From positions 1 to 58,714 of the forward strand of contig JAFMBV010000013.1 in NCBI GenBank assembly GCA_017858255.1: a stretch of 58,714 bases of DNA. The letters are read 5' to 3'. Both the position numbers and the translations under genes were made by a program. Origin of the DNA: Bacteriovoracaceae bacterium. Lineage in GTDB: Bacteria; Bdellovibrionota; Bacteriovoracia; Bacteriovoracales; Bacteriovoracaceae. Position 1 is the first letter of the stretch; each line of letters opens with the position of its first letter. The notes below the pieces were generated by a model. That model worked only from the letters and a program-made list of their open reading frames with translations. It was not told the DNA's origin and did no database searches. Shown here one piece after another: positions 10,845 to 28,166 of the stretch.

Positions 10845-13140
10845 CGTCTTTTTTATCAAAGACTAAGAGAAATGCTGGCAGAAAGATAAGGTCTACAACA
10901 AGTGCTGAGAGAAGTGTTACTGAACAAAGGATTCCAAAATTTACATTTGGTAAGAAATCTCCAAAAACATAGAGGCCAAAGGCCGAACTCAGAATTAGAG
11001 TTGTGATAACGAGAGCACTTCCTGTGTAACGAAAGATCTTGATAATATTTTCATCTTGAGTCATGCCCTCTTCTTTATTCTTAAAATAATTCGCTAGAAA
11101 GTGAATCGTATCATCCACAGCGATACCTAAACACACACTGGCAACAAGTGATGTGCCTAGATTGAGGTCCATATCAAAAATCGCCATCGTCGCTGCACCA
11201 AATGTCAGTGGAAGGACATTAGGAATAAGAGAGATTAAACCAATCTTAATTGAACGGAAAAATATCATAAGGCAGATGGAAACAAAGATCATGGCCATTA
11301 TGATGGATTGAATAAAGGTTTGCACCACGTAATCGATCATATCTTGGAAAAGGTTTGCTTTGCCAGCTATCGTTAGATCTAACCCTAACTCAAGTGCCTT
11401 TGCTTTAATCTTATCGCGATAGATCGCCCAATTTGTGGTGTCGTAGACAGTCCACAGTAGAGAAATTCGGGTGGTGCTATTGTCTAAGGAAATCCGGTCA
11501 TTAATATCCATACCAGGGGGGAGGCTTAAAGTGTAGAGGAAGAGGTATTGAGCCACCTGATTTTGCGTTTCGGGAATTTTGTAAAAGGCGGGGTCATTAT
11601 TATTTATAACCTGATTCATTTTTTTTAAAATATCAAGAATAGAGACGGTATTGTTCACAGGTTCTAAAGATCGCAACCAATCATTAAAGAGTGAGACTTT
11701 CTTTAGAAACTCTGGAGATTTTGCCATATCTGGACCACCCGCTTTTAAGATAAGCTCCGGTCCTGCACTTCCTCCAATATACTTTTTTACAACTTCATTG
11801 GCGCGGCCAATTCGTGAGTCTTGACTGAAATAACTATCTGGGTCTGCATTGGTGGAAACACTATTTCCTAGATAAACAGACACTATGGACAGCGTAAAAA
11901 ACACAAGAATGATTGGGAATCGCCACCTCTTTATTAAGGCGAAGGAAGCAGTATTTAACTTGCTCGATTTATTTCCTTTTTGGTCATCATGAAAAATGGG
12001 TGGAACTTTATAAGAAACAATTGATATTAATGGTATGAGAAGAAAGATGGTAAAAAGCCAAGCAATCATACAACCAATGCCAGCAAGAAGACCTAGGTGT
12101 TTTATAGGAATTAACTTGGTCGTCATTAAACTGAAGAGACCGATACTTGTCGAAAAACTTGTCAGAAATGTGGGCACGAAGTTTTTATGTACGGTAAGTT
12201 CTATCGCCTTCTCCGGACTTTCACCTTTACCCCGAAATTGAAAAAAGTTAACCATTATGTGAACGCTATCAGCAATTCCGATTGCCACAAGTATGATGGG
12301 AAGGATGGCCAATATAGCGCTGAAGTGAATTCCCCACCAAAAACCAAGACCTAAAGTTGCGGTAACACAAGTTATGACGATCAGAAATGGTAGTAGCATC
12401 GCCTTAAAACTTCTGAAAACATAGAAAAGGTAGGAGATAAGTAGGAGGAAGAGAAGGGGCATGATGAGTTTAACATCACCCATAGATACTTCTTCAAAGG
12501 CATAATTCAGACTGGCCTTACCAGTTATGTGGAATTCAAGATCTCCTTTTGAATACTGTTCCAATATTTCACGGGTTTGAAAAACGATGTCTTTATAGCG
12601 AGGTGTTTGTACATTTGATGGAATAAGGTGGGCAAAGATGAGGGCCAAACGGGCCTTCTTATCGACTAGGTATCCCTTGATTGATTTATCATTAAGGGAC
12701 AACTCCTTTCTTGATTGAAGGAAATCAGTATCAAAATCCTCACCAATTAAAGGCTCGACATTAATGTCATTTTCTACAGAGCTAACATAATTATAATTTG
12801 TAATAGATTCGACTCTGATTACTTGAGGTATTTGCCAAGCCTTCGAAGTGATCTCATGAATGACTTTCATGTGCTTGGATTGAAAGAGGTCGCCCTCTAT
12901 GTCGTCAGGTAAGTGCACAACGATGACAAGGGTTTCGTCATTGCCAAAGGTTTTTTCGAGATAATTGAGAGTATCAAGTTTAGGATCTGATTCATCAAAC
13001 CAGATACGAACATCATTTTTACTGTGAAAATGAATAAGGCCTGAACTTAGTCCAAGAAGGACGATGAGTGTTGCGCTGATGAGTGTCTTTGGATATTTCT
13101 TAATAATGGCCAAATATTTGGATATAATCTTATTTGTCAT
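10804..13140 (-). CDS. RND/MMPL-family membrane exporter
   Basis: This 778-residue protein has the two-fold RND layout: TM1, a large periplasmic loop (about residues 35-210), a five-helix bundle, TM7, a second periplasmic loop, then a second bundle. The conserved RND aspartates are in G-I-A-D-S-V-H-I-M-V-N-F-F and G-I-A-V-D-D-T-I-H-F-L-A-N-Y-F. Such single-chain transporters (COG1033 type) move lipids or hydrophobic metabolites using the proton gradient. It overlaps the upstream GH3 gene by 11 bases, so the two form one translation unit, and its cargo may be the GH3 product (inference). The 3' end overlaps the giant Fic gene on the other strand. Confidence 0.88.
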   Translation of the reverse strand: MTNKIISKYLAIIKKYPKTLISATLIVLLGLSSGLIHFHSKNDVRIWFDESDPKLDTLNYLEKTFGNDETLVIVVHLPDDIEGDLFQSKHMKVIHEITSKAWQIPQVIRVESITNYNYVSSVENDINVEPLIGEDFDTDFLQSRKELSLNDKSIKGYLVDKKARLALIFAHLIPSNVQTPRYKDIVFQTREILEQYSKGDLEFHITGKASLNYAFEEVSMGDVKLIMPLLFLLLISYLFYVFRSFKAMLLPFLIVITCVTATLGLGFWWGIHFSAILAILPIILVAIGIADSVHIMVNFFQFRGKGESPEKAIELTVHKNFVPTFLTSFSTSIGLFSLMTTKLIPIKHLGLLAGIGCMIAWLFTIFLLIPLISIVSYKVPPIFHDDQKGNKSSKLNTASFALIKRWRFPIILVFFTLSIVSVYLGNSVSTNADPDSYFSQDSRIGRANEVVKKYIGGSAGPELILKAGGPDMAKSPEFLKKVSLFNDWLRSLEPVNNTVSILDILKKMNQVINNNDPAFYKIPETQNQVAQYLFLYTLSLPPGMDINDRISLDNSTTRISLLWTVYDTTNWAIYRDKIKAKALELGLDLTIAGKANLFQDMIDYVVQTFIQSIIMAMIFVSICLMIFFRSIKIGLISLIPNVLPLTFGAATMAIFDMDLNLGTSLVASVCLGIAVDDTIHFLANYFKNKEEGMTQDENIIKIFRYTGSALVITTLILSSAFGLYVFGDFLPNVNFGILCSVTLLSALVVDLIFLPAFLLVFDKKDAKGQLESGPASSQ

Positions 13141-14644
13141 TCTTATTCCTTTTCCAAGGGTTCATAGCATCAGCAAGGCTGCGGTTATTCATGAGTCTTG
13201 GGACTTTATTTTGATGGGTCATTTTGTTAATAGACTTCATGTATTCAATAAAAGCCCCATGCTCTAGGCTCGTTATAATTGGATCATGCAGAACACTACC
13301 TTCAATAAGCATTTTGTAATTGTCACTAATCTTACAAAGCTCAAGAGAGAGTTCTTTTGAAAAGGAATTCAAGTTGGTTGGTTCTTTTTGAAACTCAATA
13401 AGCCACTCATGACGATTCCCTTTGTTCTCATCAGTAATGTGCGGGGCTACAGAGAAGTCCCGAACCTCAACATCAAAATGAGAGGCCGTCTTAGAGAGAG
13501 CGCTTTCAACCTGTTCGGATATAAGATGTTCGCCAGAGTTAGAAATAAAGTGTTTTGTTCTTCCTGAAACCTTCAGGCGGTATGGGCGAATGGAAGTAAA
13601 CGTTACGGTATCTCCTAGGTCATAGGCCCAAAGCCCTGCCATAGTAGTGATGACAATGGCGTATACAACTCCAATCTCGACTTCTTTTAATGAATGTCTT
13701 TTTGGATTTTCATTATCCCAATCAGTTAAAGCAACAAACTCATAGAATATTTCGGCATTCGGTACTAACAAGAGATCATCTTTATTTTGTTGATCTTGAA
13801 AAGCAATGAAGCCTTCTGAGGCACTAAAAACCTCTAACCGATGAAAGGGTTTTCCTATTAATGTCTCCATCCTCTTTTTATAAGGACCATAGGCAACACC
13901 ACCATGGGTGATAATATCAAGGTTTGGAAATACCTCTGAAACTGTTTTTGCTCCAGTTTTTTCAAGTAATCTTTCAAAGTAGCGAATAATCCAAGCAGGG
14001 AAGCCACCTACCATTCCGACATCTTGATCAAAGGATTCCTCAATCGTTTTGATCATCTTCAAATCCCAGTCGTCGATAGTATTAGTTTCGACACTAGGGA
14101 TACGCTGACTCTTCATAAAACTTGGGATGTGGCGATTGAAAATACCCGTAATTTTACCGTAACTTAAAGGTCCGTCCTGAACCATTTTTGGGTTGGCCGA
14201 GAGAATAACCATTTTTTTTAAAAGTGGTTGGTAGTTATCCGTATCTTTTAAATAAGTAGCTGAACAAAGAATAGAGGAGGCCATACCCTTTTTTAATGAG
14301 TCTTTGGTCACGGGAATAAACTTTTCTCCTGATGTCGTCCCCGATGTTGTCGCCAAATAAAGAGGAAAGCCCGGCCAAAGGACATCTCGTTCCCCCTTAC
14401 GTATTCTATCTACATAAGGCCTTAAATCATCGTATTTTGAAATGGGAACTAGCTTTTTATAATCCTCATAGGAGGTATCGATAGTCAGCTGGTGGTCTTT
14501 TCCAAACGTCGTTAGTTCAGCATTTTTCATGAGAGTTTTGAAAACTTGCTCTTGTGATAAGAGGGCCTCTTGAGAGAATTGTGCAATCTTTTTTGCCATT
14601 CTTCTAAAGTAGATTTTGAATATGAATTTCTTTAAAAATTTCAT
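13130..14644 (-). CDS. GH3-family acyl-acid amido synthetase
   Basis: GH3 enzymes adenylate a carboxylic acid and join it to an amine, usually an amino acid. The plant members conjugate auxin or jasmonate; bacterial substrates are mostly unknown. The ATP-binding motif is clear: L-A-T-T-S-G-T-T-S-G-E-K-F-I-P-V. Later family blocks are also present (V-F-S-A-S-E-G-F-I-A, A-G-L-W-A-Y-D-L-G-D-T-V and the S-G-R-T-K-H-F-I-S stretch). The open frame extends to a TTG at 14680, but ATG 14644 has GAGGAG at good spacing and gives 504 residues, near the family size. It overlaps the downstream RND exporter, suggesting synthesis and export of an acyl-amide. The substrate cannot be read from sequence. Confidence 0.87.
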   Translation of the reverse strand: MKFLKKFIFKIYFRRMAKKIAQFSQEALLSQEQVFKTLMKNAELTTFGKDHQLTIDTSYEDYKKLVPISKYDDLRPYVDRIRKGERDVLWPGFPLYLATTSGTTSGEKFIPVTKDSLKKGMASSILCSATYLKDTDNYQPLLKKMVILSANPKMVQDGPLSYGKITGIFNRHIPSFMKSQRIPSVETNTIDDWDLKMIKTIEESFDQDVGMVGGFPAWIIRYFERLLEKTGAKTVSEVFPNLDIITHGGVAYGPYKKRMETLIGKPFHRLEVFSASEGFIAFQDQQNKDDLLLVPNAEIFYEFVALTDWDNENPKRHSLKEVEIGVVYAIVITTMAGLWAYDLGDTVTFTSIRPYRLKVSGRTKHFISNSGEHLISEQVESALSKTASHFDVEVRDFSVAPHITDENKGNRHEWLIEFQKEPTNLNSFSKELSLELCKISDNYKMLIEGSVLHDPIITSLEHGAFIEYMKSINKMTHQNKVPRLMNNRSLADAMNPWKRNKNDK

Positions 14645-14879
14645 TTCTGTCGGCTCCTCAATTGGCTGGGACGTTATCAAGGAACACCAGAAATATCACT
14701 ATTTTCAGGTATATGTTGCGTGGTGTTGTTGGCGAATAATAATGAATTTTTACTAAAAACTGACAATAGACACCAGTTCCTTACAATGTCCGAGCTTTTT
14801 TCTTTCTTTAACTTACACAACTTGTCGGATACAGGCCCCAAAAGTAATTTATCTTCAGCGAAATACTTAGGAGAAATTT

Positions 14880-15998: not shown

Positions 15999-18218
15999 CT
16001 AGAATTGTTGATTAAGACCGACTACAAAAGTCCTCGGAGAGCCTGGACGGGCGCCAAATGGTCTCAAGCTGGTAAGGTAGGTGTTATCAAGGATATTGTT
16101 AATTCTTAAGAACGCGCGACCTTTTGCCGCGTAGTTATATGAGAAGGCACTATCTACAACTCCGTAAGAGGGTATTAGTCTTCTGCCTTCTGCGATCGCT
16201 TGGTCGGCCAACTGATCTTTCCAGAGAATATTTAGGTCCATGGAAAATTTCTTGTATTGGACACCTGTACCAAAATTGATCTGATTTTGAGGCACGTAAG
16301 GCATAGGGTCGTTTACTCTTATTATGTTGTTACCACTTGTTGAGCCCCATTCTGGATTTGAATTAGCGAAGCTGGTTTTGAAGCGGGCAACGGTGAATGT
16401 ATAACCAAGGCGAACAGGAAAGCGAAAGCTACCTTTTGAGAACTCATGATTGGCCATAGTTTCAAGGCCATAAATCTCCGCCTTTCCACCATTGAACTCA
16501 GTATCGATATTTTCATCACTACAGCCGGAAGAAAAACTACAAGTACCTTTTAGGTTTTGATAGTCGCTATAGAAGGCAATGGCCTCAAAGTAGATAGGGG
16601 ACTTTATACGGAAGCCAGCTTCATAGTTAATTGCTTCTTCAGGTGCTATGGACTGGCTTTGACCAGGCCCAACTAAGGTAACACCTTTATTAACTCCTGC
16701 AAGAATTACCATTTCAGAGTTTAGAGAATAGTTAAAACCGATCCCGGGAACAAAGACATTTTCAGTGTTTTTCTGAATACTTGTTCCTAAGAGCCCACGT
16801 GGGTCGCGAGTGTGGTCCACTTGTTCAACTCTAAAACCAACTTTGGTTGTTAAGTCTCCCGCTATAATTTCATCTTCTGTGAAAAAGGCGATGGCGTTTG
16901 ATGTATCTTGATTTTTATTAGTAACTTGGAAGCTGTCTTCTTGATAAATGAGATCTCCGTCGATCATTTGTGCCAACGTTTCTGAGTGATTTCTCTCAAC
17001 TTGATCTCTATGTATTCTTATTCCTATTGAGACTTCATGAGCGATCTCACCACTATTTAAGCTCATATTTAATTTTGATTGAATGCCTTGTGAATAATAG
17101 AAGCGATCATTGGCACCAATTCTTAAACTCTCAGTACCATTTGCTGAATTACGAGTGCCTCTCAAAAGGTTAACGAGGTTATCTGGATCAACTCCCGTTC
17201 CTAGTGCCGATCTAAAGTCTTGCCGGTTAAAAAGGTCGCTAAACTTAGACCAGTTTCTGTCCATTTGATGATGATATAAAGTCGTCTTACTTTTCATCCA
17301 AGAGAGTGGGCTTATAGAGTAACTAGCTTGAAGTGCTGTACGATTCCACTGCAGGTTATCGTCCTGACTCGCGGCATAGCGAACAAAAGCATTACTATTA
17401 AAATCTTCAGAAGAAGTGCCAAGGTAAGTTTCGTCAGAGTTTTCATTAGCAAAAGAAAATTTAAATTCGAGTTTTTGCTGGCGACCAGAAATACTTTTTC
17501 CTAGTTTTACGAGGACATCATTTTGTTCGAATGTTGCTTCTTCACCATTAGGGAGGGAGCGAATAAGATCTCCTTCCTTACGATTAGCTTCTATAAACCA
17601 GTGAAAACCATTCTTTTGACCACGATTGTTAAGACGTAATTGAGAAAAAGTTCCCCCACTAACTTCCACTTCTGATCCTACAGGACCAAAGAGTGGCTTG
17701 CTCAACATATTAATCGCGCCCCCAATAGAGTTGGGCCCGTATTGAACCGAGCTAGGGCCTTTAAATACCTCCATAGAGGAAAGACGACTTGTGCTTGGAA
17801 AATAGTAAGCGGCTGGAGCAGCGTAGGGGGCTGGACCTATCAGAATTCCATCTTCCATTAAAGTGATCTTCTTAGAACGATGAGGGTGAGCACCTCTTAA
17901 GCCAATATTGGGTCTAAGACCTAGTCCATCTTCTTCTTGAATATAAACCCCAGGTACTTTATCTAAAACCCGATTTACATCTTGATAATTAAAAGTCTTA
18001 AGTTCTTTTTGATCAATGAAGTGAGCACTGCCTGGTGTATAGAATACCTTTTCTTTGGAGCCGATGACATAAATGACATCTTTCTCATCATTCTTATTTT
18101 GTTCATACTCACTCGTGTCCTGAATGATTGGAGTGAAAGAACTTGTCGTCTCAGTAGTTTGCGAAAGGGTCGAGACGATCAGAAAGCTAAATAGAAAAGA
18201 AAGAATTCCTTTTGCCAT
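15999..18218 (-). CDS. TonB-dependent outer-membrane receptor (FecA-like)
   Basis: A 739-residue outer-membrane receptor. Signal peptide, then the plug domain (about residues 45-170: D-V-I-Y-V-I-G-S as a TonB-box-like start, then V-P-G-V-Y-I-Q-E-E-D-G and I-G-L-R-G). Next come a long beta-barrel rich in aromatic strands and a C-terminal phenylalanine (L-N-Q-Q-F) needed for barrel insertion. Plug wording (R-P-N-I-G-L-R-G, G-P-S-S-V-Q-Y-G-P-N-S-I-G-G-A-I-N) is like iron(III)-citrate and related siderophore receptors. It is the last gene of an operon with tonB, a DUF4856 protein and imelysin; its ATG overlaps the imelysin stop (TAATG). Substrate is likely an iron complex, inferred from neighbours. 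Confidence 0.9.
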   Translation of the reverse strand: MAKGILSFLFSFLIVSTLSQTTETTSSFTPIIQDTSEYEQNKNDEKDVIYVIGSKEKVFYTPGSAHFIDQKELKTFNYQDVNRVLDKVPGVYIQEEDGLGLRPNIGLRGAHPHRSKKITLMEDGILIGPAPYAAPAAYYFPSTSRLSSMEVFKGPSSVQYGPNSIGGAINMLSKPLFGPVGSEVEVSGGTFSQLRLNNRGQKNGFHWFIEANRKEGDLIRSLPNGEEATFEQNDVLVKLGKSISGRQQKLEFKFSFANENSDETYLGTSSEDFNSNAFVRYAASQDDNLQWNRTALQASYSISPLSWMKSKTTLYHHQMDRNWSKFSDLFNRQDFRSALGTGVDPDNLVNLLRGTRNSANGTESLRIGANDRFYYSQGIQSKLNMSLNSGEIAHEVSIGIRIHRDQVERNHSETLAQMIDGDLIYQEDSFQVTNKNQDTSNAIAFFTEDEIIAGDLTTKVGFRVEQVDHTRDPRGLLGTSIQKNTENVFVPGIGFNYSLNSEMVILAGVNKGVTLVGPGQSQSIAPEEAINYEAGFRIKSPIYFEAIAFYSDYQNLKGTCSFSSGCSDENIDTEFNGGKAEIYGLETMANHEFSKGSFRFPVRLGYTFTVARFKTSFANSNPEWGSTSGNNIIRVNDPMPYVPQNQINFGTGVQYKKFSMDLNILWKDQLADQAIAEGRRLIPSYGVVDSAFSYNYAAKGRAFLRINNILDNTYLTSLRPFGARPGSPRTFVVGLNQQF

Positions 18219-19561
18219 TAGTCTGCATCTCCCTGAGCCTGGCCGGGAGCACTTAGTTCCTGAAGTGCGCTAAGGTATTCATTTTTTAAAAGGTTCGTGA
18301 CTTCGCGAATATCCCACACAAGAGCACAGGCTTCTTCAAGACGATTGTCTGCAGTTGTTTGTTCACATTTGACTGGGTCAAGGTTTTCAAGAGCAAGTGC
18401 TAAGCTTGTTGATTCTTTGAAAGACCTAACACTTTTAAGTACATTTTCTAGGGCCGATGACATCTTCTCTGCGACATCTCCATGATCTCGGCTTCTTAAA
18501 AGATCATCAAAGCCAAACCCGTTTACACCTGTTTGAGGATTTATTCCAAGAAACAAGAGGCGAAAGCCAACGAGAGAGGATTCAATGGCCTCTAAGGAAA
18601 AGTCAGCATAAAGGTGTTCTCTTTTTTTAGGGCAAACTGATTCTGGGCATTTTGTGACTGTGCCATCAATTCGCACCTCAAAGCCTGCGGGATAAGCAAG
18701 TTTGACATCCTTTGTATTTGTATCGAGAAGGAAAAGTCCTTGGCCAATAGAATTCGTAAGTTCAATGGGGCTTCCCGCGCCTCCCCTTAGCATTGTGGCC
18801 GTGTAGTGACCTTCATTGGGAGACCAAAGTTTCGCTAGCTCTCTTCCTTTCTTTTGTATGTCCTTAAGAAGGTGTTTAGCATAGGTACAGGCAGTCTTTT
18901 CACGGCTTAAAAGTGGAGTTTTAAACCACTCTACGATGCGAGAATTAGGGCGGCTACAGCGACTCTTATTAGGGTCACCAAAGAAGAGGGGCTCAAGGGC
19001 ATCGAGGCCTCTAACATTGTAGTTATTGATTACATCTGTTCTTGGTAAGCGTGTAATTCCGCCAGTACTTAGTTTATAAAGTTCAAAGTCAACGCGACAC
19101 TTTTCTTCACCATCAAAAGTGTAAAGGCTGTTCATTACTGTGGAAGAGGCAAGAGCTGCAGGACCATAACTCATCATAGAGAGTTGATGATAGCTACTCA
19201 TGGCCTTTTTCCAATTCTCTTGAACAGGTTCTCTAAGCTTTTTTAACTGCTCTAGAGACAATTCTGTTAGTACCTCAACCCCAAGACAATACTGATTAAC
19301 GGATTGATTAAAAGAATCGAGCTCGTTGGCCATTCTTTCAACGAGTGGCTGGGTGACAAAGGAGCCAGTATTCGCCAAAAATTTTTCTATTGTGAAAGAT
19401 CCGCTATTAATACGACTTGTTTCACTCAAAAGCAGGTCAATATTATCCAGCTCTTTTACAGGTGCTACGGCGACATCGAGGTTCTTCTGAGTAAAGTCCT
19501 CACATGAAGTGAGGAGAATACTTGTAAGGATCAATATTTTTACTTTTTTCATATAGGCCAT
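18218..19561 (-). CDS. imelysin-family lipoprotein
   Basis: Imelysin (ICMP/IrpA) proteins are helical periplasmic or outer-membrane proteins tied to iron uptake. Despite the old peptidase name most are thought to bind metal. The signal peptide ends in a lipobox L-T-S-C, so this is a lipoprotein. The W-K-K-A-M-S-S-Y-H-Q-L segment and the central G-L-D-A-L-E-P-L-F-F match the imelysin core. The GxHxxE metal motif is changed here (D in place of H). An in-frame TTG lies at 19576 inside the upstream gene; ATG 19561 and ATG 19552 are both possible starts and neither has a strong ribosome binding site. It is coupled to the receptor downstream and the DUF4856 gene upstream. Confidence 0.8.
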   Translation of the reverse strand: MAYMKKVKILILTSILLTSCEDFTQKNLDVAVAPVKELDNIDLLLSETSRINSGSFTIEKFLANTGSFVTQPLVERMANELDSFNQSVNQYCLGVEVLTELSLEQLKKLREPVQENWKKAMSSYHQLSMMSYGPAALASSTVMNSLYTFDGEEKCRVDFELYKLSTGGITRLPRTDVINNYNVRGLDALEPLFFGDPNKSRCSRPNSRIVEWFKTPLLSREKTACTYAKHLLKDIQKKGRELAKLWSPNEGHYTATMLRGGAGSPIELTNSIGQGLFLLDTNTKDVKLAYPAGFEVRIDGTVTKCPESVCPKKREHLYADFSLEAIESSLVGFRLLFLGINPQTGVNGFGFDDLLRSRDHGDVAEKMSSALENVLKSVRSFKESTSLALALENLDPVKCEQTTADNRLEEACALVWDIREVTNLLKNEYLSALQELSAPGQAQGDAD

Positions 19562-19569
19562 TATGATTT

Positions 19570-21015
19570 TTACCAATTTTGGATGTTGTTGTCCGAGAAG
19601 TTATAAGTTTTACCAATGAGGTCTCTTATCTGTTGTAGAGCGGCCATATATTGATTGACGGCCGTTTCTCCAGCATGTGGGAGTACTGGTCTGTCTCCAA
19701 GCAATCCTTGTATTTGGTCAAAAGTGGCATCATTCATAAGTGATTTAGGGTTGAATTGAAAAGATAATGAGAATCCTTTCATTTCACCCCAAAACTTAAC
19801 AAAGTCTTCATAGAGATAGTTTTCAGTTCCGTAGCTCTTGTATTCACTAATGGTCTTGTTTATGTAGTGAATTGTGAGACCGGCCAACGTTTTTTCCCAG
19901 TTTGTTAAAATGATTTGTGCTTGGGCCTCAACGTATTTTTTGTATCCTTGCGGCTTCTTTGTGATCAGGTTTCTACCACGAAGAAAAGCGTTCATAATGT
20001 CCTCAGACAGATTTAAGTCTTGGTCAAAGGCCGTAAGGTCAATGCGAGCACTATTGGGTGCAATACCGAGGTTCTTTTCAGACTTAAGTGAAATCAGCCC
20101 ATCATTATTACTATCTAGGGACAACTTTTCTCTGGCGAGCTTGTCACCGTAAGCGAGGTAATCTTTTGCAGCACCAAAGTAGCCAAAGGCTTCATCAAAG
20201 TGATGTTCCATTGCTGTATAGTTCGCACCTTGTTCGGCCGGCGTAGTATTGTCAGCATTAAGACCTTTATTAGGACCTAAATCTGTTGAAAGATAATCTC
20301 TTGCAGCCTGTGAATAGGAGACTGCGCCTAAAAGAAACTTTTGTGTGAGCTGAGCGTAATCAAGGCCATCCTCACTAGTATAGGCACCAGTGATTGTTTG
20401 TGGCGCTAAGTTTCCATTAGGGATAGTAAAGACCTTTCCCTCTACTGCATTCTTTGCAAATGCATTAAACCAGTTGTTGAGAAGGTCATCAGGCGTTTGA
20501 ATATTTTGAATACCAAAAAGTTTACCTCTTCTTAAAGAGTTGTCGACACCGGCTACTTTTCCATAGAGGTTTTTTCCTGGAGATTGTATATCGGAATAAA
20601 TAAACCCTTCAAAAATTGGCAAGTTAACGCCGACTGGATTTTTAGCATTTACTTTAAAGTCGCTAAAACCATCAATTGAGCCTGGGGCAAAAAGGTTGGT
20701 ATTCTCTGAGTACTTGTAGTAGCTGAGGAGCATATTTTTGGCATCATCTATCGAACCCGGATATTGGCCTAACAGCTGTGAAGTCATAGCACCTTTTATA
20801 TCTTCAATAAGTACATTTCGAAATACTTGTCCTGTGTAAGAGACAGAGGATGAGCGGGAAAACTGACCATTAAACTGGTAAGTGTTAGGTGCGCTTTCCA
20901 TGATGGTTTTAATTTCTGTAGGCGCATTTTGAATTGTTTGTTGGGCATCATCATAAAGATTTGCCATTGAAAAAGGCGCTACTAAGAAGGAAGAGATCAA
21001 AAAAGAATACTTCAT
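19570..21015 (-). CDS. DUF4856-type exported protein of the iron operon
   Basis: A 481-residue protein with a Sec signal peptide (MKYSFLISSFLVAPFSMA). The E-H-H-F-D-E-A-F-G-Y-F-G-A-A-K-D-Y segment and the overall helical layout resemble the DUF4856 family, whose members in Bacteroidetes sit beside imelysin and TonB receptors. Family assignment is from memory of that motif and context. Its exact role is unknown, but the metal-ligand-like H-H-x-D-E cluster suggests metal handling. An AGGA ribosome binding site precedes the ATG. A palindrome identical in layout to the one upstream of tonB lies 53-76 bases before the start, so this gene may have its own regulated promoter besides read-through from tonB. 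Confidence 0.72.
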   Translation of the reverse strand: MKYSFLISSFLVAPFSMANLYDDAQQTIQNAPTEIKTIMESAPNTYQFNGQFSRSSSVSYTGQVFRNVLIEDIKGAMTSQLLGQYPGSIDDAKNMLLSYYKYSENTNLFAPGSIDGFSDFKVNAKNPVGVNLPIFEGFIYSDIQSPGKNLYGKVAGVDNSLRRGKLFGIQNIQTPDDLLNNWFNAFAKNAVEGKVFTIPNGNLAPQTITGAYTSEDGLDYAQLTQKFLLGAVSYSQAARDYLSTDLGPNKGLNADNTTPAEQGANYTAMEHHFDEAFGYFGAAKDYLAYGDKLAREKLSLDSNNDGLISLKSEKNLGIAPNSARIDLTAFDQDLNLSEDIMNAFLRGRNLITKKPQGYKKYVEAQAQIILTNWEKTLAGLTIHYINKTISEYKSYGTENYLYEDFVKFWGEMKGFSLSFQFNPKSLMNDATFDQIQGLLGDRPVLPHAGETAVNQYMAALQQIRDLIGKTYNFSDNNIQNW

Positions 21016-21067: not shown

Positions 21068-21091
21068 AATAGTTTGGTATGTCAAACTTTT
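21068..21091 (-). promoter_or_regulatory. palindromic operator, copy 2, upstream of the DUF4856 gene
   Basis: Left arm AATAGTTTG (21068-21076), six-base spacer, right arm CAAACTTTT (21083-21091): one mismatch from the perfect copy 1 upstream of tonB. The same arms with the same spacing at two promoter positions of one operon argue for a dimeric repressor site. The regulator is unknown; an iron or metal sensor is the natural guess. Confidence 0.6.
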
Positions 21092-21665
21092 AATTGATCT
21101 TGTAAACTATGACCTTAGACAGCTTATAAAGACTGTTTGAGTTATCTGAGAGTCTTTTAAATGACCAGCTCTTTGCGGCCAAAAGGGCAGAGTTATCTAG
21201 GCTTTGATAACCTGAGCTTTCGCTTACGAGAACTTTATCTATTTCACCGGTTCCCTTAACCCATAAGGTAAGGGAAACTTTGCCAGTAATACCCCTTCTT
21301 AGAGCAATTCTTGGATAATGTGGCTCAACATAACTTTTCACAACAGACTCAAAGTTTTTAGCTGCAGGCGCTGACGAGTTTTCTTCTTGAGGCTTAGAAG
21401 GAGTAATAGGCGCAGTTTTAGCAATATTCTCTCTAATGACTTTTTTCTTTTCAATTTTCTTAGGAGCTCTTTTTGGTTGTGGTTTAAAGGCTTCTTGTAA
21501 GTGAACCTGGATACTTTGGGCCATTGGAAAGCTCTCTTGGCCACTAACAAAAAATGTACTGCGACTCTTCTTATAAAAGAGAATGCCTCCATGAAGGACA
21601 ACGCTCAGGAGCAGAAAGGCCTTAAAGAGGCGATTGGAGTATGTCAGGTCCGGCTGATAATACAT
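21090..21665 (-). CDS. tonB: TonB-family energy transducer
   Basis: TonB links the proton gradient to outer-membrane receptors. The sequence shows a short cytoplasmic N-terminus, one membrane helix (AFLLLSVVLHGGILF), a lysine/proline-rich periplasmic linker (P-K-P-Q, K-R-A-P-K-K-I-E) and a C-terminal TonB domain (Y-P-R-I-A-L-R-R-G-I-T-G-K-V, E-S-S-G-Y-Q-S-L-D, W-S-F). The frame opens to 21740, but the perfect palindrome at 21689-21712 would then lie in coding sequence. Starting at ATG 21665 (191 residues) puts it 24 bases upstream, as expected of an operator, and removes a non-TonB-like leader. No exbB/exbD genes are in the window, so its motor partners must be elsewhere. Confidence 0.87.
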   Translation of the reverse strand: MYYQPDLTYSNRLFKAFLLLSVVLHGGILFYKKSRSTFFVSGQESFPMAQSIQVHLQEAFKPQPKRAPKKIEKKKVIRENIAKTAPITPSKPQEENSSAPAAKNFESVVKSYVEPHYPRIALRRGITGKVSLTLWVKGTGEIDKVLVSESSGYQSLDNSALLAAKSWSFKRLSDNSNSLYKLSKVIVYKIN

Positions 21666-21688
21666 GGGCGCATAGTAACAAAACTCTA

Positions 21689-21712
21689 AAAAGTTTGCTA
21701 GTTCAAACTTTT
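21689..21712 (-). promoter_or_regulatory. palindromic operator, copy 1, upstream of tonB
   Basis: Perfect inverted repeat AAAAGTTTG (21689-21697), six-base spacer CTAGTT, CAAACTTTT (21704-21712), just ahead of the tonB start at 21665. The twin site lies in front of the next gene of the same operon. Confidence 0.65.
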
Positions 21713-27457: not shown

Positions 27458-27824
27458 CCTATTTTCTTATTAAATACTCAAAAATATGGCGATAATCTAG
27501 ATGATTTGTGACTTTTTTGCCCCTTAAAAAATAAAAATTTCACTTAAAAAAGAGAGGGAATTCTTCCTTTTATAGGGTGTTTTTATAATAAAAAAGACAC
27601 TTTTTTTTAAGAGTGAAAAAACGTTGAACGCTAGTATCTATGGTGTGTTTAAAGTTTTTATACCCGGTGAAGTAGAAAATAACTTTAATAAAAATTAAAG
27701 TTATTTTAAGGTTATGGCGAAAAAGCTTTAAGTATGAACACTTGAATAAAGTGACATTTTTGTTTGCGTTAAAACAAATTTGTGTTTATTCTTTAAAAAG
27801 GTATTACATCCAGGAGGACGTCTA
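27458..27824 (+). promoter_or_regulatory. AT-rich spacer upstream of the histone-like gene
   Basis: No gene was found in this very A/T-rich stretch. It holds a perfect 14-bp inverted repeat with an AAAA loop at 27676-27707, and a possible promoter TTGCGT (27764-27769), 17 bases, TATTCT (27787-27792), placing the start of transcription about 26 bases before the ATG. A good ribosome binding site, AGGAGG, is at 27812-27817. The promoter call is by eye only. Confidence 0.4.
27676..27707. repeat. perfect 14-bp inverted repeat with AAAA loop
   Basis: AAAATAACTTTAAT (27676-27689), AAAA, ATTAAAGTTATTTT (27694-27707). It is A/T-only except for one C and one G, and lies about 60 bases upstream of the predicted promoter of the histone-like gene. 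It may be a protein site, a cruciform or a terminator-like element. Confidence 0.7.
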
Positions 27825-28166
27825 ATGGCTGTTAAGAAAAAAGCTACTGCTAAGAAAGTAGCTAAAAAAGCAACGAAGAAAGCTACTAAGAAAAAAGTAG
27901 CCAAGAAGAAAGTAGCTAAAAAAGCTACTAAGAAGAAAGTAGCTAAGAAAAAAGTAGCAAAGAAAAAAGTAGCTAAAAAAGCTACTAAGAAAAAAGCTGC
28001 TAAGAAGAAAGTAGCTAAAAAAGCTACAAAAAAGAAAGTAGCAAAGAAAAAAGTAGCTAAAAAAGCTACTAAGAAAAAAGCTGCTAAGAAAAAAGTCGCT
28101 AAAAAAGCCACTAAGAAGAAAGTAGCTAAAAAAGCAACTAAGAAAGTCGCAAAGAAAAAGAAATAA
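27825..28166 (+). CDS. histone H1-like, lysine/alanine-rich DNA-binding protein
   Basis: The 113-residue protein is made only of K, A, V and T apart from the first Met, with repeats of K-K-V-A-K-K-A-T-K, like the basic tails of eukaryotic histone H1 and the Hc1/H1-like proteins of Chlamydia, Bordetella and Bdellovibrio. Such proteins bind DNA through positive charge and probably compact the nucleoid; a role in the non-replicating attack phase is inference. The frame runs to 27780, but the ATG at 27825 follows AGGAGG at seven bases and is clearly the start. The coding DNA is itself repeated (A-rich 12-30 base units), so copy number may vary between strains. It has its own terminator. Confidence 0.9.
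   Translation: MAVKKKATAKKVAKKATKKATKKKVAKKKVAKKATKKKVAKKKVAKKKVAKKATKKKAAKKKVAKKATKKKVAKKKVAKKATKKKAAKKKVAKKATKKKVAKKATKKVAKKKK

Follow-up and report, generated by a model that had tools for sequence, protein, structure and literature searches.

The palindrome examined here is a real DNA switch, and it stood before iron-uptake genes throughout one Bacteriovorax-like family, the family of the genome that supplied the window (the whole 58,714-nt stretch of DNA that was analyzed). It is probably the operator of the family's main iron repressor, most likely a divergent DtxR/MntR-type sensor that replaces Fur. What the sequences show is a conserved site, an iron regulon, scarcely any ordinary Fur in the family, a DtxR-like protein that co-occurs with the site, and an overlap of site and promoter. 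The binding protein, the metal, and the sign of control are what we infer; the protein is most likely linked to the site to judge from co-occurrence, operator register, and one varying residue. On balance, we also favor the wider reading that the entire family lost Fur and reorganized its iron regulon around a divergent DtxR/MntR-like repressor with apparently one metal site and the operator GTTTGA-N4-TCAAAC, one recognition-helix residue covarying with the presence of the operator.

The palindrome pair and its operon

Two copies of the palindrome were found in a minus-strand operon with the order tonB, DUF4856, imelysin (M75), and TonB-dependent receptor (Table 1). The first copy, AAAAGTTTGCTAGTTCAAACTTTT, is a perfect AAAAGTTTG-N6-CAAACTTTT palindrome (0 mismatches), and the second, AATAGTTTGGTATGTCAAACTTTT, carries one mismatch and likewise has an N6 spacer. 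The sequence-only reading had described a 24-bp repeat with equal spacers ahead of genes of one operon; coordinates, mismatch count, and spacer length were verified, and the genes that follow are tonB (ATG 21665) and the DUF4856 gene (ATG 21015). Operator 2 overlaps the 3′ end of the tonB open reading frame, whose stop codon ends at 21090. When the window was shuffled 100 times at the dinucleotide level, no palindrome match with up to one mismatch arose.

The receptor was closest to siderophore and ferric dicitrate receptors. The DUF4856 protein was present in five of 58 relatives searched (G004, G005, and G022, with partial matches in G001 and G003), and no homologue was found in the plasmid collection. 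Elsewhere, the window encodes a 128-aa lysine/alanine repeat protein (KKVAKKATKK; 27780-28166, plus strand) that resembles bacterial histone H1-type proteins and had no Pfam match. A GH3-family protein (PF03321, 3.7e-38) is encoded at 13130-14680 on the minus strand; the GH3 family is chiefly known for plant hormone conjugation.

Table 1. Features of the tonB operon in window coordinates; promoter elements are candidates.
Feature	Position	Strand	Remarks
Operator 1	21689..21712	-	Perfect palindrome upstream of tonB; retained before tonB in G001, G004, G005
Operator 2	21068..21091	-	1 mismatch; before DUF4856 gene; retained in G001, G004, G005, G022
Possible -35 of tonB promoter, CTAGCA	21696..21701	-	Inside operator 1; TTGGCA or TTGTCA in two relatives
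Possible -10 of tonB promoter, TACTAT	21672..21677	-	TATGAT, TATTAT, or TACGAT in this position in relatives
Internal promoter -35, TTGACA	21080..21085	-	Inside operator 2; TTGACN in four relatives
Internal promoter -10, TAAAAA	21057..21062	-	17 bp past TTGACA; weak match; family-wide -10 peak at this distance
tonB (TonB C-terminal domain)	21090..21665	-	PF03544 5.1e-15; tonB_Cterm 7.8e-14
DUF4856 protein, 481 aa	19570..21015	-	PF16148 7e-22
Imelysin (Peptidase_M75) family protein	18218..19576	-	PF09375 6.1e-16
TonB-dependent receptor	15999..18218	-	PF00593, PF07715; TIGR01783 1.1e-44, under its cut-off

Core motif, regulon, and promoter geometry

When the readable upstream regions of operon relatives were compared, both sites were found in three genomes and the DUF4856 site in a fourth. 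The part that remained constant was GTTTG-N6-CAAAC, mostly GTTTGA-N4-TCAAAC, and the flanking A/T bases varied. The shared core is thus 16 bp, rather than the 24 bp of the sequence-only reading: the full 24-mer is overly specific, and the core is the unit of practical use. Across the whole 4.08-Mb genome, only the two operon sites fell within two mismatches of the 18-letter motif, and the strict 24-mer at three mismatches showed no genome-wide enrichment (12 matches vs. 16 in the control). A 20-letter motif gave 12 matches in the GTDB genome collection, five of them in Bacteriovorax-like or unplaced MAGs, some with plausible targets (e.g., feoAB in L160); the remaining matches, in unrelated taxa, are probably due to chance.

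Each genome of the window's family had 0 to 8 strict matches to the core GTTTGANNNNTCAAAC (hereafter, the box). Over the 97 family genomes, 224 strict matches were counted vs. 65 with a reversed control (Wilcoxon, 4.5e-11), so that the enrichment at uptake genes elsewhere, on which the sequence-only reading had made its case depend, was observed. Its proposal of a site for a dimeric regulator is supported by this enrichment and by the frequent position of the core before iron genes.

An unbiased count was obtained at feoA, which was chosen by Pfam model, independently of the motif, with 200 bp upstream inspected. A box with at most two mismatches stood upstream of feoA in 27 of 35 cases within the family (12 exact, 10 with one mismatch, and five with two), compared with 0 of 7 cases in the phylum's other families. 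The box-negative genomes include G264, which had no DtxR-like match, and G025, G143, and G035, whose DtxR-like protein has diverged. Other box-negative cases were G011, for which just 52 bp were available, and G008, which has a three-mismatch site.

Sites taken from 11 genomes were nearly all intergenic, most of them lying 100 bp or less from a start codon. Among the proteins encoded behind them are FeoA, TonB receptors, TonB, siderophore-interacting protein (SIP), FumC, HiPIP, and imelysin, as well as di-haem peroxidases, FA_hydroxylase, and an ABC ATPase; another is an IucA/IucC siderophore synthetase, whose gene is paired with that of a divergent MFS transporter. Within G000, the genome that supplied the window, further boxes precede feoA (contig C76), the genes for a Bfd-like ferredoxin and a ferritin-like protein (bfd-bfr, C179), a CCP_MauG-like (di-haem peroxidase-like) gene (C195), and an FA_hydroxylase gene (C30). 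Some targets had no recognizable link to iron (e.g., AstB and kelch/TolB-like proteins). Sites of the CRP/FNR, LexA, and TetR types were considered and dropped, as their spacing or target genes did not match.

In gene orientation, -10-like hexamers showed a peak at offset 25, counted from where the box begins (14 sites vs. ~3 elsewhere; Poisson, 2e-6), which places the peak 17 bp past the TTGAC within the box. Several boxes therefore hold the -35 element, and binding should therefore repress. At tonB, the -35 candidate falls in the second half of the box and the -10-like element ends 6 bp before the ATG (6-7 bp when relatives are included). The tonB start (window 21663-21677) appears to have no ribosome-binding site, an arrangement retained in three relatives. 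Because the -10 element is so near the ATG, a leaderless tonB message, or one with a very short leader, is suggested.

The same geometry bears on the nature of the repeats. In RNA, the repeat could fold into a 9-bp stem closed by a 6-base loop; however, the core exceeded the reversed control, it was retained at the same genes across genera, and it often lies around the -35, where it would precede the transcript start. It is hardly credible, then, that the repeats act as RNA hairpins or that they are AT-rich palindromes that arose by chance and serve no regulator.

Fur-family proteins and the candidate regulator

Outside the family, strong Fur matches were found in most genomes, and in the phylum iron control usually falls to Fur. 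Inside the family, the Fur-family protein was weak, zinc-linked, or absent, and ordinary Fur appears to be missing from nearly all members. The window's genome has a single Fur-family gene, a weak match. As the Fur-family gene adjoins cobW, ABC-3 (znuB-like) transporter, or TonB receptor genes in several relatives, we read its product as looking like Zur. The box sequence also differs from the Fur box, which bears out the earlier remark that the palindrome is unlike it, and the window's genome has no ordinary Fur gene.

That the box is read by the single Fur-family protein, as a Fur with altered DNA preference, would fit the presence of one such gene in the window's genome and the usual role of Fur in the phylum. 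We nonetheless consider this very improbable: G022 and G027 carry the box with no Fur-family match, 35 family genomes with no Fur-family match listed had 59 boxes vs. 28 in the control, the gene's neighbors present a Zur picture, and none of the five box-bearing family members examined had a Fur box (TGATAATNATTATCA-like, up to two mismatches) at feoA.

In G025 (L235, C31:71400-72500), an open reading frame at 227-1009 fuses a Fur domain to a FeoA domain (PF01475, 1.9e-29; PF04023, 2.1e-13); this fusion was the sole stronger Fur match in the family, and G025 has no strict box. In the window's genome, the Zur-like gene adjoins a gene (L135, C92, 114-1274, minus strand) for a protein with about 25 EEPVV-type repeats.

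A DtxR-type protein was present in all 14 genomes first examined. When the DtxR-like model was run over 291 genomes of the phylum, it matched 93 of 97 family members and was rare outside the family. In the window's genome, the gene lies at C169:81885-82430 and encodes a stand-alone protein of 185 aa, with an N-terminal winged helix-turn-helix (Fe_dep_repress; PF01325, 3.7e-9) and a C-terminal metal-binding and dimerization domain (Fe_dep_repr_C; PF02742, 1.6e-11), both above cut-off. Its neighbors in that genome include no recognizable iron genes, and no box was found upstream of it within two mismatches, so there was no sign of autoregulation. Two genomes with no detected DtxR-like protein still had boxes, G028 (one box; 95% complete) and G286 (three boxes; 81% complete). 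Some family members also encode a second DtxR-like protein, a paralogue whose recognition helix differs (GVSRNAVHLQLKKL; L150 in G016, contig C4; L241 in G015; L242 in G116).

The best NCBIfam matches and the closest solved relatives of the protein were MntR (PDB 1on1/4hx4, E about 3e-11), and its score against the curated MntR equivalog model NF003025 was 64.1 bits, under the cut-off of 138. Four of the six MntR ligands were changed in the alignment: Asp8, Glu11, His77, and Glu99 correspond to His20, Leu23, Arg90, and Cys113, the other two ligands being Glu102 and His103. Aligned to DtxR, the putative primary-site residues Cys113, Glu116, and His117 were invariant (equivalent to Cys102, Glu105, and His106), and an invariant His20 took the place of Met10. 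The positions of the DtxR ancillary site (His79, Glu83, and His98) were not metal ligands in the alignment (e.g., Arg90 for His79). The ancillary metal site thus appears to be lost, and the protein would therefore be a family variant, not a standard DtxR or IdeR.

The likeness to MntR could also mean that this same protein senses manganese and that its genes form a manganese-sparing or mixed Mn/Fe regulon. This is quite unlikely, however: the four MntR ligands are replaced, the targets include feoAB and bfd-bfr as well as TonB systems, siderophore synthesis, and siderophore-interacting protein, and none of the box targets examined was a manganese transporter.

The mntH operator of Bacillus subtilis is AATTTGCCTTAAGGAAACT (PMC9861239), and cryo-EM has shown that MntR sites are 18 bp and that Lys41 reads bases 4-5 (PMC11275975). 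The box and the mntH site had a common dyad register, with AAAC at +5 to +8 and T at +9. DtxR/MntR operators are 18-bp dyads of 9-bp half-sites with T at -7 and contacts at 4 to 7, and AGTTTGANN-NNTCAAACT agrees with the mntH site in length and register. Thr53 of the DtxR-like protein is the alignment equivalent of the base-reading Lys41. A strict box was present in 34 of 42 family genomes with Thr53 and in 0 of 5 with Ile or Leu (Fisher, 0.0008), a value that is a guide only: the genomes counted share ancestry, and neither the co-occurrence nor the pattern at residue 53 is made up of independent events, as both track the family tree. One genome with Ile53, G009, has a two-mismatch box at feoA.

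A further alternative accepts a real, iron-related box but has it read by another conserved regulator, either of the Rrf2 family (IscR or RirA-like) or unrecognized. Rrf2 regulators govern iron genes in other bacteria, and Rrf2 proteins were found in 25 of 25 family genomes examined, at one to six copies each. However, they were equally present in the box-less G025, G264, G031, G143, and G035 and so did not track the box, and the operator register and residue-53 pattern indicate a DtxR/MntR fold; we regard this alternative as unlikely.

With a DtxR/MntR-type repressor and ample Fe(II), His20, Cys113, Glu116, and His117 would together bind metal, and the metal-loaded dimer would hold both GTTTGA half-sites. 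Bound over the -35 hexamer, it would block RNA polymerase, and the two operators would close a promoter at tonB that serves the entire operon and an internal one at DUF4856. Under iron scarcity the repressor would come off, and the TonB, imelysin, and DUF4856 proteins and the outer-membrane receptor would be made together with the products of feoAB, bfd-bfr, and others. The likely identity of the regulator and the likely promoter geometry are additions to the sequence-only reading.

Significance and comparison with known systems

In the open-access literature searched, we found no account of iron control in Bacteriovoracaceae and nothing relevant on DtxR or Fur in Bdellovibrio or Bacteriovorax. 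If true, the proposal would supply the family's iron box, a target list, and a testable regulator, and it would add a clear example of Fur being exchanged for a DtxR-like protein as master iron regulator inside one phylum. The joint change of operators and protein (rewiring) would be directly testable in cultured relatives.

The system resembles that of Fur in regulon content and promoter overlap, whereas the box differs in sequence from the Fur box (GATAATGATNATCATTATC) and an ordinary Fur gene is missing from almost every family member. With MntR of Bacillus subtilis, the candidate shares a two-domain architecture with no third SH3/FeoA domain, a similar sequence, and the mntH operator register with AAAC at +5 to +8. 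It differs in its predicted ligands (His20, Cys113, Glu116, and His117), the apparent loss of the ancillary site, its iron-gene targets, and Thr53 in place of Lys41; the inner bases of the operator are TGA here vs. TCC or TGCC in MntR operators.

Like DtxR/IdeR of Actinobacteria, the protein would be a family-wide iron repressor that serves instead of Fur, and by alignment it appears to retain the primary-site Cys-Glu-His. Unlike them, it has no third domain, apparently no ancillary site, and His for Met10, and its box is very different from the DtxR/IdeR operator, TTAGGTTAGGCTAACCTAA. YtgR of Chlamydia is an Fe-dependent DtxR-like repressor in a Gram-negative bacterium and is fused to a membrane permease, from which it is cleaved off (PMC5599777). 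It thus offers a Gram-negative precedent for a DtxR-like iron repressor, whereas the protein described here stands alone.
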